Source: a bacterium HR28 (GTDB taxonomy: Bacteria > Chloroflexota > Chloroflexia > Thermomicrobiales > Thermomicrobiaceae). Taken from it: 64,000 nt of DNA. The stretch spans positions 248,001-312,000 of the forward strand of contig BEIE01000002.1 in NCBI GenBank assembly GCA_002898255.1. The letters run 5' to 3'. The notes beneath the pieces are model-generated. The model ran no database searches. It was not told the DNA's origin and worked only from the letters and a program-made list of their open reading frames with translations. Each line of letters opens with the position of its first letter. The first letter of the stretch is position 1. Below, one piece after another: positions 46,233 through 50,887 of the stretch. The translations under genes and the position numbers were made by a program.

Positions 46233-47156
46233 GTGAGTCAAGCTGAGGGCCCGTTGCGGATACAGATGCGGCTGGCGCGACTCGCCGCAGCGTACTTGCC
46301 GCTGGGGATCGCTAACTGGTTGATAGAGGCGGGCGCGCGGCGCGTCATGCTCCCTCCTGACATCAAGCGGGAGGAAATCCGCATCGACAGTCTCCGCTGT
46401 ATCTGGCTCGTCCCTGAGAGGAGCCGAAGCGATCGGGTGTTGCTGTACCTCCACGGTGGGGGATTCGTGTTCGGGTTGAGCGGGCAGCACCTTCGAATGG
46501 TCGCGGAACTCGCGCGACGATCCGAACTCCGGGCTCTTCTTGTCGATTATCGGCTGGCTCCGCGTCATCCGTGGCCAGCAGCACTGGAAGACTGCCTGGC
46601 AGCGTATCGCTGGCTCCTTGAGCAAGGATTTGCGCCGCAGCACATTGTGGTGGCCGGAGACTCAGCGGGTGGAAACCTTGCGATCACGATGGTGATGGCG
46701 CTACGCGATGCCGGAATCCCGCTCCCCGCGGCCGTCGCTTGCCTGTCCCCGGTCGGCGATCTCGCACGGCGCGAAGGGGAAGGCCGGCTGGTCGGTGACG
46801 CGGTGTTGCATCCGCGGGCGATCCGGCGGTTCAACCGGTCGTACATTGCTGGCCACGACCCACGCCATCCGTTGATCTCGCCGCTGTATGGAGACTGGCA
46901 TGGACTGCCGCCGCTCCTCATCCATGCTGGTGAGGAGGAACTCCTGCGGGAAGACGCCGAGCGAATCGCAGCTACAGCCCGGGCAGCAGGGGTGGAAGTA
47001 GAACTCACGATTTTCCCTCGGATGTGGCATGTCTGGCAGCTCAACTTGGAACTCCCGGAGGCGAAGGAGTCGCTTCACGCCATCGCACGCTGGCTTGTGG
47101 AGCAACTCAAGAGAGCGGAAGAGCGTGGAGCAGCGCCCGCATACCATAGGGACTGA
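46233..47156 (+). CDS. HSL-type (bacterial family IV) carboxylesterase, copy 1
   Basis: Alpha/beta hydrolase of 307 aa in the hormone-sensitive-lipase group. The oxyanion-hole motif is YLHGGGFVFG, the nucleophile GDSAGGN, the acid is the Asp or Glu region of HAGEEELLREDAER, and the histidine is in RMWHVWQL. VDYRLAPRHPWPAALED is typical of the family. GTG start at 46233 behind GAGGA. A paralogue lies next to it (47649-48545); the last 90 residues of both are strikingly alike. Such enzymes hydrolyse short acyl esters; the natural substrate is unknown. Confidence 0.92.
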   Translation: MSQAEGPLRIQMRLARLAAAYLPLGIANWLIEAGARRVMLPPDIKREEIRIDSLRCIWLVPERSRSDRVLLYLHGGGFVFGLSGQHLRMVAELARRSELRALLVDYRLAPRHPWPAALEDCLAAYRWLLEQGFAPQHIVVAGDSAGGNLAITMVMALRDAGIPLPAAVACLSPVGDLARREGEGRLVGDAVLHPRAIRRFNRSYIAGHDPRHPLISPLYGDWHGLPPLLIHAGEEELLREDAERIAATARAAGVEVELTIFPRMWHVWQLNLELPEAKESLHAIARWLVEQLKRAEERGAAPAYHRD

Positions 47157-47648
47157 CGCCTGCACGACAGTGAACTTTCGGTTGCGCTGCCTGTTTTGAG
47201 TCGATGGCCACGCGGCGCCCGATCATCGACGATGGCCCGCGAGAATGTGGCGAACCCCGTGACGAACCAGGATGATCGCCGGCGAGGCGCTTCGCGTCCT
47301 ACAGTCTTGACTTACCGCTTGCGATCGTCACCAGGCCGACGCATGGGTTGCGTGCTCGACTGAAAACAACGGGCAGGAAGGATTGCATCAACGTTGCCGG
47401 TTCAACTCGGTCAGAGTTGAGCGGAAGCGGTCTAGCGCGGAACGGCTCATTCAAGAATCCATCGTATCACCAGCTGTGTAGCATATCGTGTCATTTCTGC
47501 GAATTGAGAGCAATCTCCCTCCTTGTGCCTGCTGATCACTCAGCCGGCCCTGCAGATGTGCACACAGACAGTGTCACACCACTGTCACGACTTCATGCTG
47601 CTTGTAGTGCAGGATCAGGCCGGGGCCTCGAGTGAGAGGAGGGCCGCG
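47157..47648. other. 492-nt spacer between the esterase paralogues, three hairpins
   Basis: Stem-loops: a nested GCCAC...GTGGC fold near 47209-47265, TCAACTC GGTCA GAGTTGA at 47402-47420, and GACAGTG TCACAC CACTGTC at 47567-47586, the last 63 nt before the second esterase start. No gene seen; no U-run. Confidence 0.6.
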
Positions 47649-48545
47649 ATGAGGGGTAACACCTCGCTGACTGTTCCACGAAGTCCTCGTTCTATTGTCG
47701 AACTCCTGGGCACGGAACTTTCGCTACCAGAGGCGCGCTCCATGATTGAGCGGGCACGGCGGATTAGCCGATTACCTCCGGGAACTCGACGCGAGGTATG
47801 GAATGTCGGGGGTGTCCGCTGCGAATGGTTATTACCCGAGCAAGCCGATTCTTCCTGGGTACTCGTGTATCTCCATGGTGGTGGCTTTGTTCTCGGGCGG
47901 ACGGCGCTGCATGTTGGGCTCGCTGCGACATTGGGGCATCTTTGCGCAGCGCGTGTACTGCTTATCGATTATCGACTTGCGCCCGAACACCCGTATCCGG
48001 CGGCGCTCGAAGATGTGACGCTGGTGTACCGGGCATTGCTTGCAGCCGGTTGGGCGCCGCACCGCATCGCAATAGCGGGAGATTCCGCTGGCGGTAACTT
48101 GACACTCGCGACGCTGCTAAGCCTGCGCGACGCTGGTCATCCGCTGCCGGCCGCGGCAGCGTGTCTCTCCCCAGTTGTCGACCTTGCTGATTCAGAGGAG
48201 CGCAGCCGGAGGGGGCGCGACAGGTGGCTTCGGCCAGAAGTGGTGACACTGTTTAATGAGGCCTACCTGAACGGCCAAGATCCGCGTCACCCGCTCATCT
48301 CTCCGGTGTACGGGGACCTACGCGGACTCCCACCATTGGTTATTCACGCCGGCGGCGAGGAGCTGTTGCGGGAAGATGCCGAGCGGCTGGCAACCGCGGC
48401 CTGGGCGGCAGGCGTTCAGGTGGAGCTGGCGATCTACCCTGGGATGTGGCATGTCTGGCAGCTGAGCTTGGAACTCCCGGAGGCACAGGAGTCACTGAGG
48501 AGGATCGCGCGGTTCTTACGGCAGCACGTGTGGGCAGAGGTGTAA
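47649..48545 (+). CDS. HSL-type carboxylesterase, copy 2
   Basis: Alpha/beta hydrolase of 298 aa, paralogue of the preceding esterase. Motifs: YLHGGGFVLGRTALHVG, IDYRLAPEHPYPAALED, GDSAGGNLTLATLL, DPRHPLISPVYGDLRGLPPLVIHAG, GMWHVWQLSLELPEAQESL. The order and spacing match copy 1, so it arose by tandem duplication followed by divergence of the N-terminal lid region. Start: ATG at 47649 close behind GAGAGGAGGG; longer frame upstream runs through a hairpin spacer and is not protein-like. Its terminator lies inside the end of the convergent helicase gene. Confidence 0.92.
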   Translation: MRGNTSLTVPRSPRSIVELLGTELSLPEARSMIERARRISRLPPGTRREVWNVGGVRCEWLLPEQADSSWVLVYLHGGGFVLGRTALHVGLAATLGHLCAARVLLIDYRLAPEHPYPAALEDVTLVYRALLAAGWAPHRIAIAGDSAGGNLTLATLLSLRDAGHPLPAAAACLSPVVDLADSEERSRRGRDRWLRPEVVTLFNEAYLNGQDPRHPLISPVYGDLRGLPPLVIHAGGEELLREDAERLATAAWAAGVQVELAIYPGMWHVWQLSLELPEAQESLRRIARFLRQHVWAEV

Positions 48546-48596: not shown

Positions 48597-50771
48597 TCAG
48601 AATGCCAACACCGGCGCCGCTGGATCACCCGCAGCGGCGCCGTTTTCCCACGTGGTCTTCTGCCATTCGGGCGCCTCAAACCCGGCCAGGAGAGGGCTCG
48701 TTCCCTCGGCCGGCCGGAGCACGACAAGTGCACGGATTGCGCGCGTCATGGCGACGTAGGCAGCGCGGCGCCAGAGGGCCACGACTTCGCGAATCTCATC
48801 AGTCTCAATGTCAGACCAGCCGACCGGCGGCGGCTGCCAATCAGGCATCAGGACAACAACGAGCGGGAACTCGAGACCCTTTGCGTTGTGCCAGGTCAAG
48901 ACTTTGACGGAGGGGCTGGCAGAGAGCGATTGTCCGCGCGTGACAACCTCGCTGGGGAACCCAGCGGTACCGAGGGCAGAAGCAACCTCTTGAGCAAGGT
49001 CGTTCGTCGGGACAAGAATCGCAGCATGGCTTGGTGTGAGTCGCAGCACAGCGAGCTGCTCGGCAAGCACCTTTGGGAGGGCCTGGCCCCACGCATCCCA
49101 TACGGGGAGAAGGACGACTAACGGCTGCCTCCGTGCGGCCTGCTTGCGGTGGTCGAGAGGTGGATGATGGTCAGCTGTGCCACGCATCGGAATAGCCTGG
49201 AGGTAGGCCTTGGCTGCGGCGAAAATTTCTGGGGTTGACCGTTGATTCGTTGAGAGGGAGATCTGTTGGCAGTTGGGCAACTCGTCGCGCAGGAGCTCCC
49301 AGCGAGCTCCACGGAGGTAGACAGACTGACCGACATCACCGACGAAAACGAGAGCACCCGGATCACGGCAGAGCTCGCGCACGAGGCGCAATGCGACCAG
49401 ACTCAGGTCATGGACTTCGTCAACGATGACAGCATCGTACCGTTGATGGTCCGGGTTCTGGCGCAGGATATCCAATGCCAGCTGCCGGCGCTCCTCGAGG
49501 AGGTAAAGCTCTTGCTCACGGAGCAGGTCACTGAGCGCTTCGTAGACACGCCAGACCGCCTCACGTTGGGTCGCATTCAACCCGACCTGTCGTCCGGTGC
49601 GATCAGCCTTCAGATAGTCTTCGAGGGAAGCGAGCCCACGGCCGAGGATCACTTCATCAATTTCTGTGCGGAGATAGAGATCAGTGATGCGTCGGAGTAA
49701 GGAAGCGAGCGCTCGGTCACGCCGCGGATCCGGAGAGAGCGGACGGTCGAAGGCACGTGATCGGGCTTGCCGGAGCAAGATGCGGACTTGCTCATCGCGG
49801 GCCATCTCGACGTCCGGTGTCAGGTCAGCGACGAGTCGGTCGAGTGTGTCCACGGTGAGCGAGAGGCGATCGGCGGGTGGGAGGTGGCGCTCGGCGAGAC
49901 GCGTCAATGTCTGGGCGAGCGTGCGAGTAAAAGTGACGAAGAGCACGCGTGGGTCTTCATGACCGCTCGCTTGAGCACGTTCTCGTAGGGCCGAGACGGC
50001 GAGGAGTGCAAGGACTGTCTTCCCGGTACCGGGAGCTCCAGTGATGAGATACGGGCCCGGGCTGGAGCGGATACGCTCGAGCGCCTTTTCCTGGCTCTGG
50101 TCGAGGAGATAACAGAGCTGCGTGTTCCCCTGCAAGAGATCAGGCAGGGAAAGATCTGGCCCGAGGACATAGACCGGGTCGTCCAGTGTGTCGTCGAGTG
50201 TCTTGCCACAGGCGAGATCGATAAGTCGTTCAGCCAAGCTGGGAGGGAAAGTTTGCAGGAGTTCCAGCAGTTGCTCCTCGGTCTGGCAGGACAGGAGTGC
50301 AGGCCATCGCTCGCGGGGCACGTTGAGGCGCGCGAGGTCTGGTTCCGTCAGCAGTCGGGCAAGTGGGCGCGTGGAAGAGATCTCGGGCGAGCCTTGGTCG
50401 AACGAGGGGAAGGGCTCGTTCTGTCCGGTTGCGGAGGGAAGTAAATCTCCTGGATCCGGTTCGATGATCAGGGTTAGAGGATCGTCAAAGGCGAGTGACT
50501 CCTGCCGGTAGGCATCTTTCCGATGCTCGACACCGAGGAGGACAACGACGCAATCGTCCCGGATGCGGTAGAAGACACGATAATTGCCAACCCGCAGACG
50601 GTACACGTCGTGGTACTTCTCGAGACGCCGCTTGTGATCTGTCCCATCCGGATGGGGATCAGCGCGGAGTTCCGGGAGCTTCCGGATGAGGCGTTCTTGA
50701 TTTGCGCGTGAGAGGACGGTGAAGGAATTCAAGAACGTCTGTGAGGCTGCGAGCGTGTACTCGGAGCACAT
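48597..50771 (-). CDS. RelE/ParE-like domain fused to a UvrD/Rep superfamily 1 helicase
   Basis: A 724-aa protein. Residues 1-92 look like a RelE/ParE toxin fold (KLPELRADPH, YRLRVGNYRVFYRIRDDCVVVLLGVEHRKDAYR). After a linker comes a superfamily 1A helicase: Walker A GAPGTGKT (245-252), FVTFTRTLAQ (Ia), Walker B VIVDEVHDL (449-456), FVGDVGQSVY (III), NQRSTPEIF, VLTWHNAKGLEFPLVVV (626-640) and YVAMTRA (672-678). All ATPase motifs are intact. No antitoxin gene is adjacent, so the RelE part is probably not a free toxin. Possible role: RNA or DNA surveillance coupled to the ribosome; unproven. Confidence 0.9.
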   Translation of the reverse strand: MCSEYTLAASQTFLNSFTVLSRANQERLIRKLPELRADPHPDGTDHKRRLEKYHDVYRLRVGNYRVFYRIRDDCVVVLLGVEHRKDAYRQESLAFDDPLTLIIEPDPGDLLPSATGQNEPFPSFDQGSPEISSTRPLARLLTEPDLARLNVPRERWPALLSCQTEEQLLELLQTFPPSLAERLIDLACGKTLDDTLDDPVYVLGPDLSLPDLLQGNTQLCYLLDQSQEKALERIRSSPGPYLITGAPGTGKTVLALLAVSALRERAQASGHEDPRVLFVTFTRTLAQTLTRLAERHLPPADRLSLTVDTLDRLVADLTPDVEMARDEQVRILLRQARSRAFDRPLSPDPRRDRALASLLRRITDLYLRTEIDEVILGRGLASLEDYLKADRTGRQVGLNATQREAVWRVYEALSDLLREQELYLLEERRQLALDILRQNPDHQRYDAVIVDEVHDLSLVALRLVRELCRDPGALVFVGDVGQSVYLRGARWELLRDELPNCQQISLSTNQRSTPEIFAAAKAYLQAIPMRGTADHHPPLDHRKQAARRQPLVVLLPVWDAWGQALPKVLAEQLAVLRLTPSHAAILVPTNDLAQEVASALGTAGFPSEVVTRGQSLSASPSVKVLTWHNAKGLEFPLVVVLMPDWQPPPVGWSDIETDEIREVVALWRRAAYVAMTRAIRALVVLRPAEGTSPLLAGFEAPEWQKTTWENGAAAGDPAAPVLAF
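48612..48646 (+). terminator. Strong terminator of esterase copy 2, inside the helicase gene
   Basis: Perfect 11-bp stem CGGCGCCGCTG/CAGCGGCGCCG with a 9-nt loop and TTTT, 66 nt past the esterase stop. The same bases code, on the minus strand, for the Ala/Gly/Pro-rich last residues of the helicase. Confidence 0.85.
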
Positions 50772-50854: not shown

Positions 50855-50887
50855 CAGCCCGTCCCGCGTGCAACACGGGACGGGCTG
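50855..50887 (-). terminator. Hairpin downstream of aldehyde dehydrogenase
   Basis: Perfect 11-bp stem CAGCCCGTCCC/GGGACGGGCTG (50855-50865 with 50877-50887), 32 nt past the aldehyde dehydrogenase stop on the minus strand. The following CTCTGTCC is a weak U-tract. It separates this gene from the downstream helicase. Confidence 0.7.

Follow-up and report, generated by a model that had tools for sequence, protein, structure and literature searches.

A gene that joins a toxin-like domain to a DNA helicase, and that has no antitoxin gene beside it, raises the question of what its product does and with which partners it works. We have addressed this question for a gene of bacterium HR28 (Thermomicrobiaceae, Chloroflexota) that lies in a 64,000-nucleotide stretch of contig BEIE01000002.1 (positions 248,001 to 312,000), hereafter the window. 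A first-pass annotation, made from the sequence alone, had described a RelE/ParE-like fold fused to a complete UvrD-type helicase, and had considered the domain to be probably repurposed, with ribosome rescue, RNA decay or anti-phage defence as possible roles. The analysis presented here confirms that observation and partly supports its interpretation.

The RelE-UvrD gene and its surroundings

The RelE-UvrD gene occupies positions 296,597-298,771 of contig C2, and its features are collected in Table 1. Its neighbours, as read from the ORFs, are genes for an aldehyde dehydrogenase, esterases and membrane or transport proteins. Upstream, 147 bp separate it from the aldehyde dehydrogenase gene, and downstream there are 51 bp before a convergent esterase gene. 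Neither of these gaps holds a plausible ORF for an antitoxin, in agreement with the first-pass annotation, and a free toxin with a hidden antitoxin was therefore rejected. A scan for consensus promoters found none upstream of the gene, and the inverted repeat of the upstream gap is not followed by a T-run.

Table 1. Features of the RelE-UvrD gene and of its upstream gap, in window coordinates
Feature	Coordinates	Strand	Basis
RelE-UvrD helicase (ArmD-like), complete gene, 724 aa	48597..50771	(-)	ORF, ATG start, Pfam, full-length alignment with ArmD of E. coli ARMADA Type II
RelE domain, residues 1-92; active-site positions R58, R60, R65, R84, Y88	50496..50771	(-)	Pfam, AF2 model, Foldseek, conservation
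Conserved helical linker, residues about 140-196, L-x-x-L-x-VP ... LL-x-x-x-TE-x-x-LL motif	50184..50354	(-)	Alignment consensus, full-length model
UvrD-type SF1 helicase N-terminal half, residues 227-494; Walker A K251, Walker B D451/E452	49290..50093	(-)	Pfam, alignment
UvrD helicase C-terminal half, residues 616-684, AKGLEF and TRA motifs	48720..48926	(-)	Pfam, motifs
15-bp inverted repeat between aldehyde dehydrogenase gene and RelE-UvrD gene	50855..50887	(.)	Sequence scan

Just downstream of the RelE-UvrD gene, the window carries two tandem alpha/beta-hydrolase (esterase-like) genes (46233-47156 and 47523-48545, both on the + strand), which share about 55% identity with each other's orthologues and represent a local duplication.

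A RelE-type domain fused to a UvrD-type helicase

The Pfam model ParE_toxin, which represents the RelE/ParE superfamily, matches residues 25-88 (E 3e-9, above the cut-off). An AlphaFold2 model of residues 1-104 (mean pLDDT 86.9, pTM 0.80) shows a strand, two helices and further strands, i.e., the element order of RelE; two rows from the plasmid collection were left out of the alignments used for structure modelling. When this model was compared with the PDB using Foldseek, the top match was the RelE of Thermus thermophilus (2khe, E 2e-5), and the runners-up were 9g12, 1wmi, 3bpq and 3g5o, with RelE1/RelE2 of Mycobacterium tuberculosis and archaeal RelE among them. RelE structures appeared at E 2e-5 to 1e-4 and ParE structures at E 0.025 or worse, and a profile search with the domain reached 1wmi at E 2e-11. 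Thus, of the two families named in the first-pass annotation, RelE provides the best structural kin, whereas the far weaker ParE matches give no support to identity as a ParE toxin or gyrase inhibitor. A RelE rather than a ParE fold makes an action on gyrase unlikely.

The remainder of the protein is an intact SF1 helicase of the UvrD type, as had been noticed. Its two halves are matched by the Pfam models UvrD-helicase (E 8e-15) and UvrD_C (E 1e-11) over the residues given in Table 1, and its motifs are intact (GAPGTGKT at 245, VDEVHD at 450, GDVGQSVY at 478, AKGLEF and TRA). The full-length model (pLDDT 79, poorly supported at residues 105-132 and 198-220) matches UvrD/PcrA/Rep and places the linker helices at residues 143-187. 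An ordinary UvrD/PcrA/Rep repair helicase was rejected, because the corresponding NCBIfam equivalog models scored 43-69 bits against cut-offs above 900. The best PADLOC model was GajB (E 1e-23), and the GajB models span only the helicase part. GajB is also a UvrD-like SF1A helicase, and its role in Gabija is phage defence; however, it works with the nuclease GajA, and no GajA-type gene was recognised by eye among the ORFs neighbouring the window gene.

The type II RelE toxins of E. coli, T. thermophilus, archaea and M. tuberculosis (RelE1/2) share with the window protein the fold and the five active-site positions, but in the window protein the domain continues into a helicase of about 630 residues, linker included, and no antitoxin gene is adjacent. 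Pairing of a RelE-like fold with another module is known from other defence proteins. One of them is Cami1, which is not known to contain a helicase. Its structures (PDB 8phb/8phj) are in the Foldseek list of the window domain and, according to the title of 8phj, Cami1 binds cyclic tetra-adenylate. Another is CnuH of the CoCoNuT systems, which carries a RelE-like RTL domain and differs from the window protein in its helicase and in the order of its domains (eLife 2024, PMC11090510).

Full-length homology to ArmD of the ARMADA system

The ARMADA Type II system consists of four genes, encoding ArmD together with ArmA, ArmB and ArmC, whereas Type I has been described without ArmD (Bell et al. 2025 preprint, PMC12458937). 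In E. coli, ARMADA confers a non-abortive protection against phages that is abolished by deletion of any of the four genes; the ArmD mutation K266A also abolishes it and D454N reduces it, both mutations being in the helicase (PMC12458937). We have found the same four-gene order in the E. coli plasmid NZ_AP027623.1, in whose ArmD the numbering of K266 and D454 agrees with the preprint. The window protein aligns with this ArmD from end to end, linker included (24% identity over 730 positions, E 2e-29; hhalign probability 100%), and the two mutated residues, of Walker A and Walker B, fall on K251 and D451. Both proteins consist over their full length of a RelE-like N-terminal domain, a linker and a UvrD/GajB-like helicase, and thus the RelE-UvrD architecture is one already known as ArmD. 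By its sequence, the window gene encodes an ArmD-family protein, i.e., an SF1A (UvrD/GajB-like) helicase with an N-terminal RelE-type domain. It differs from the E. coli protein in its low identity (only the 24% given above), in its placement in a separate clade and in a fuller RelE active site (R/R/R/R/Y versus S/R/R/H/Y).

It differs as well in location. Whereas armD follows armA-armB-armC in one operon, the window gene is sited among metabolic genes and is unlinked from an ARMADA operon. Such an operon is nevertheless present in the same genome (G000). A search for the MZB domain revealed a 1688-aa YprA-family helicase (ArmC) at about 613.3-618.4 kb of C2, and upstream of it, on the same strand, there are a short conserved ORF, a 1413-aa DrmMI/PglX-like methyltransferase (ArmB) and a 962-aa Snf2-like helicase (ArmA). 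This armA-armB-armC operon spans about 613-628 kb of C2, about 315 kb from the window gene, and no armD neighbours it. The nearest kin of its ArmC is found in operons laid out as in Type I, the type that has been described without ArmD and that the Chloroflexota ARMADA operons resemble. This arrangement, an unlinked RelE-UvrD gene in a genome that carries the ARMADA helicase, was found in Thermomicrobium, to which the genome of the window belongs, and in Chloroflexus. DISARM was rejected for the genome of the window, because no DrmA match was found in it.

The ORF between armB and armC (about 619.0-619.9 kb of C2 in G000; L075:14995-15852, minus strand) has no Pfam match, and its C-terminal 190 residues, approximately, are 63% identical in genome G166. 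It is possibly a small extra ARMADA component of Thermomicrobium.

Relatives of the window gene in defence operons

The neighbours of the relatives were identified by PADLOC, Pfam and clustering. In Chloroflexota, several relatives reside in class-1 DISARM operons (DrmD, DrmMI, DrmA, DrmB, DrmC), next to drmMI and overlapping drmA, although the window gene itself is not in such an operon. The order in L041 is DrmD, DrmMI, RelE-UvrD, a 312-aa ORF, DrmA and DrmB. In L037, DrmMI precedes the RelE-UvrD gene and an overlapping DrmA follows it; in L046, the gene lies between DrmMI (before) and DrmA (after); and in L055 and L057, it is followed by DrmA, DrmB and DrmC. An ARMADA-like set has the YprA helicase directly downstream of the RelE-UvrD gene in L049, L034 and L081, and downstream with small ORFs in between in L053. 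In L064-L067, type-III-like Res and Mod genes lie upstream and the RelE-UvrD gene comes after mod (the family scans were run on L065). Lastly, on a plasmid of Deinococcus sp. NW-56 (L096:9004-11025), the gene belongs to a BREX locus, in which brxC and pglX flank it; an HNH nuclease gene and a DarT-type gene come next. An adenine methyltransferase gene, adjacent or nearly so, recurs in these operons, and several other RelE-UvrD copies have no adjacent defence gene.

Among the roles that had been proposed, anti-phage defence is therefore supported by the siting of relatives in DISARM, ARMADA, BREX and restriction-modification loci, as well as by ArmD being a defence protein (PMC12458937), whereas ribosome rescue and general RNA decay received no specific support. 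We found no mention of a RelE-UvrD subunit in the DISARM or BREX literature, a coverage that is incomplete and leaves novelty unproven. As far as the literature was searched, the presence of this subunit in class-1 DISARM and BREX operons, and the unlinked arrangement with co-occurrence described below, are new.

Distribution, locus and phylogeny

A survey of 301 Chloroflexota genomes gave 43 with matches at E <= 1e-20. In 31 the match reached about E 1e-40 or better, and these were counted as subgroup A, with a pseudogene in G182 and a split gene in G124 included. The same fusion is found in Chloroflexota, Cyanobacteriota, Deinococcota and Pseudomonadota, with full-length relatives on plasmids of Pseudanabaena, Qipengyuania, Deinococcus and E. 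coli. The RelE domain, linker and helicase occur together across the whole family, and conservation of the complete architecture in dozens of genomes indicates that this is not a chance fusion. Matches in phage records cover only the RelE part or a short stretch of the helicase; some Gordonia phages carry RelE/RelB pairs whose RelE is 34-39% identical to the window domain over 87-138 residues. These pairs, together with the fold and sequence of the domain, are what could be said for a free type II toxin gene that became fused to a helicase by accident and has its antitoxin encoded elsewhere. Given a fusion conserved across four phyla and no antitoxin gene adjacent to it, we regard this explanation as very improbable.

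The locus of the window gene is shared by L002 and L036, and in both Chloroflexus and Thermomicrobium the gene sits at a fixed locus, which is unusual for defence genes. The protein diverges rapidly: it is 49% identical to its orthologue in G166, where the syntenic flanking proteins are 72-97% identical. In G182, another Thermomicrobium genome, several stops make the orthologue (L061, on C5) a pseudogene, whereas ArmC of this genome is intact. The orthologue of T. roseum (L033, plasmid NC_011961.1) appears to be frameshifted inside the RelE domain; it is annotated from a non-standard start. Either the sequence contains an error, or the RelE domain is broken and the helicase intact.

The fixed locus with conserved neighbours would fit a housekeeping function, close to the ribosome rescue or RNA decay of the first-pass annotation, in which a DNA-repair helicase, or one dealing with conflicts between transcription and translation, would dock through its RelE domain on stalled ribosomes and clear the mRNA from collided complexes. 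RNA polymerase is a site of action for UvrD, PcrA and motors of the HelD type, and the purifying selection described below, strongest on the RelE part, is also in line with such a function. A patchy distribution (43/301 genomes at the looser threshold), pseudogenes within a genus and the repeated siting inside defence operons are not, and a housekeeping function is in our opinion improbable.

In the tree of the family, stand-alone copies are scattered among operon-linked ones. The label of stand-alone copy requires at least 7 changes on well-supported branches, and the DISARM-linked copies require at least 4 label changes, and thus gain or loss of linkage has occurred more than once. The Thermomicrobium copies fall together in a single long-stemmed clade and E. 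coli ArmD groups with subgroup B, the deep placement being unsure because of the long branches.

The RelE active site and its conservation

The active site was mapped by sequence alignment to E. coli RelE, with a two-residue indel placed in a beta-turn. The residues K52, K54, R61, R81 and Y87, which we take to be the active-site residues of E. coli RelE, correspond to R58, R60, R65, R84 and Y88 of the window protein. The first two positions have changed from K to R, so all five remain basic or Tyr. Among 29 sequences of subgroup A, R58, R65 and R84 are kept in all 29, R60 in 28/29 and Y88 in 27/29. Most of subgroup B, like E. coli ArmD, has S, R, R, H and Y at these positions. When the window gene was compared with its 93%-identical copy in L002, the RelE part had a dN/dS of 0.13, as against 0.20 in the helicase and 0.37 in the linker, and thus the RelE part is not decaying in this pair.

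The first-pass annotation had considered the domain as probably repurposed. The retention of basic and Tyr residues at the five aligned positions gives no indication that the original RelE activity would have been lost. The modelled RelE fold suggests that the domain may act as an RNase; in the literature examined, we found no report of RNase activity or of RelE point mutants of ArmD. There is a considerable probability, somewhat short of even, that the domain cuts no RNA and serves instead to position the helicase, as a module that binds nucleic acid or docks on a protein. E. coli ArmD and most of subgroup B have S where the first basic residue would stand and H at the position of RelE R81, which is consistent with this function, as is the fact that both reported ArmD mutants are in the helicase. 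In contrast, the five positions hardly vary in subgroup A, to which the window protein belongs, and dN/dS within the protein is lowest in the RelE part. Moreover, YoeB, an active relative of RelE, also uses His at the position equivalent to R81.

Co-occurrence with ArmC and DrmA

A strong match to ArmC or DrmA was present in 27/31 genomes with the fusion and in 36/270 without it (p 4e-17, uncorrected for phylogeny, which confounds the test, and with score limits for ArmC and DrmA chosen after the score lists had been seen). Part of this association is trivial, because in some genomes the genes share an operon. After collapsing to genera, the match was found in 11/14 genera (p 6e-6), and in 5/8 (p 0.009) when only genera whose gene is not beside ArmC/DrmA, or has an unknown context, were counted. 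HsdR, which served as control for defence-rich genomes and as the only control for genome size, was not enriched (19/31 versus 128/270, p 0.18). In genus g12 (G206 and G312), the RelE-UvrD gene occurs without an ArmC match, and in G206 also without DrmA.

The g12 genomes, together with the several copies that have no adjacent defence gene, would fit a stand-alone defence, in which the protein alone senses DNA ends or single strands arising in phage replication and releases its own RelE RNase, with no ARMADA partner, in a manner that resembles GajB of Gabija or HamB of Hachiman. GajB being the best PADLOC model, and a Thermomicrobium protein that diverges much faster than its neighbours, also favour it. 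However, a YprA-type defence helicase is present in 27/31 carrier genomes, and since E. coli needs all four ARMADA genes, ArmD alone is not protective there (PMC12458937). We therefore consider a stand-alone defence rather unlikely, and a non-cutting RelE module would be compatible either with it or with a function in trans.

Proposed function in trans

The explanation that we favour, with about an even chance, is that the window protein is an unlinked ArmD-type subunit that works in trans with the ARMADA operon to block phage replication. Its proposed partners would be ArmA, a Snf2-like helicase, ArmB, a PglX/DrmMI-like N6-adenine methyltransferase, and ArmC, a YprA-family helicase. These three would detect incoming DNA without the ArmB mark and open it. 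The UvrD motor would then load on the exposed single strand and translocate. On phage DNA undergoing transcription and translation, the RelE domain tethered to the motor would cut the phage mRNA as it is made, the ribosomal A site being the probable place of cleavage. Cleavage by a tethered domain would keep toxicity local and could make an antitoxin unnecessary.

In favour of this explanation are the full-length homology to E. coli ArmD, the relatives sited in defence operons, the ARMADA operon of the same genome, the co-occurrence with ArmC or DrmA, the conserved RelE active site and the rapid divergence of the protein. Several observations argue against this partnership in trans, i.e., the location outside the ARMADA operon among metabolic neighbours, the fixed locus, the apparent frameshift in T. 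roseum, the g12 genomes without ArmC and the resemblance of the Chloroflexota operons to Type I, described without ArmD. In addition, the G182 pseudogene, in a genome whose armC is intact, argues against a strict dependence of the partners on each other.

More tentatively, the defence contexts taken together could reflect a shared effector module, recruited in cis or in trans by ARMADA, class-1 DISARM, BREX and type-III-like restriction-modification systems, in which a DNA-tracking motor would deliver a ribosome-dependent RNase to phage transcripts, and tethering would take the role of an antitoxin in confining the toxin. If so, ArmD would not be specific to ARMADA Type II, and one RelE-helicase subunit would be exchanged among DNA-marking defence systems. 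Such a subunit could be encoded far from its partners, and would then be missed by operon-based defence finders, and RNA cleavage would be tied to systems that are thought to act on DNA.

One more gene context was seen in genus g52 (L038, L039, L070 and L071), where a gene encoding an HhH-GPD DNA-glycosylase domain (scanned in L038) directly follows the RelE-UvrD gene. It belongs to the same cluster in the 4/4 loci of this genus, which might point to a link with base excision.
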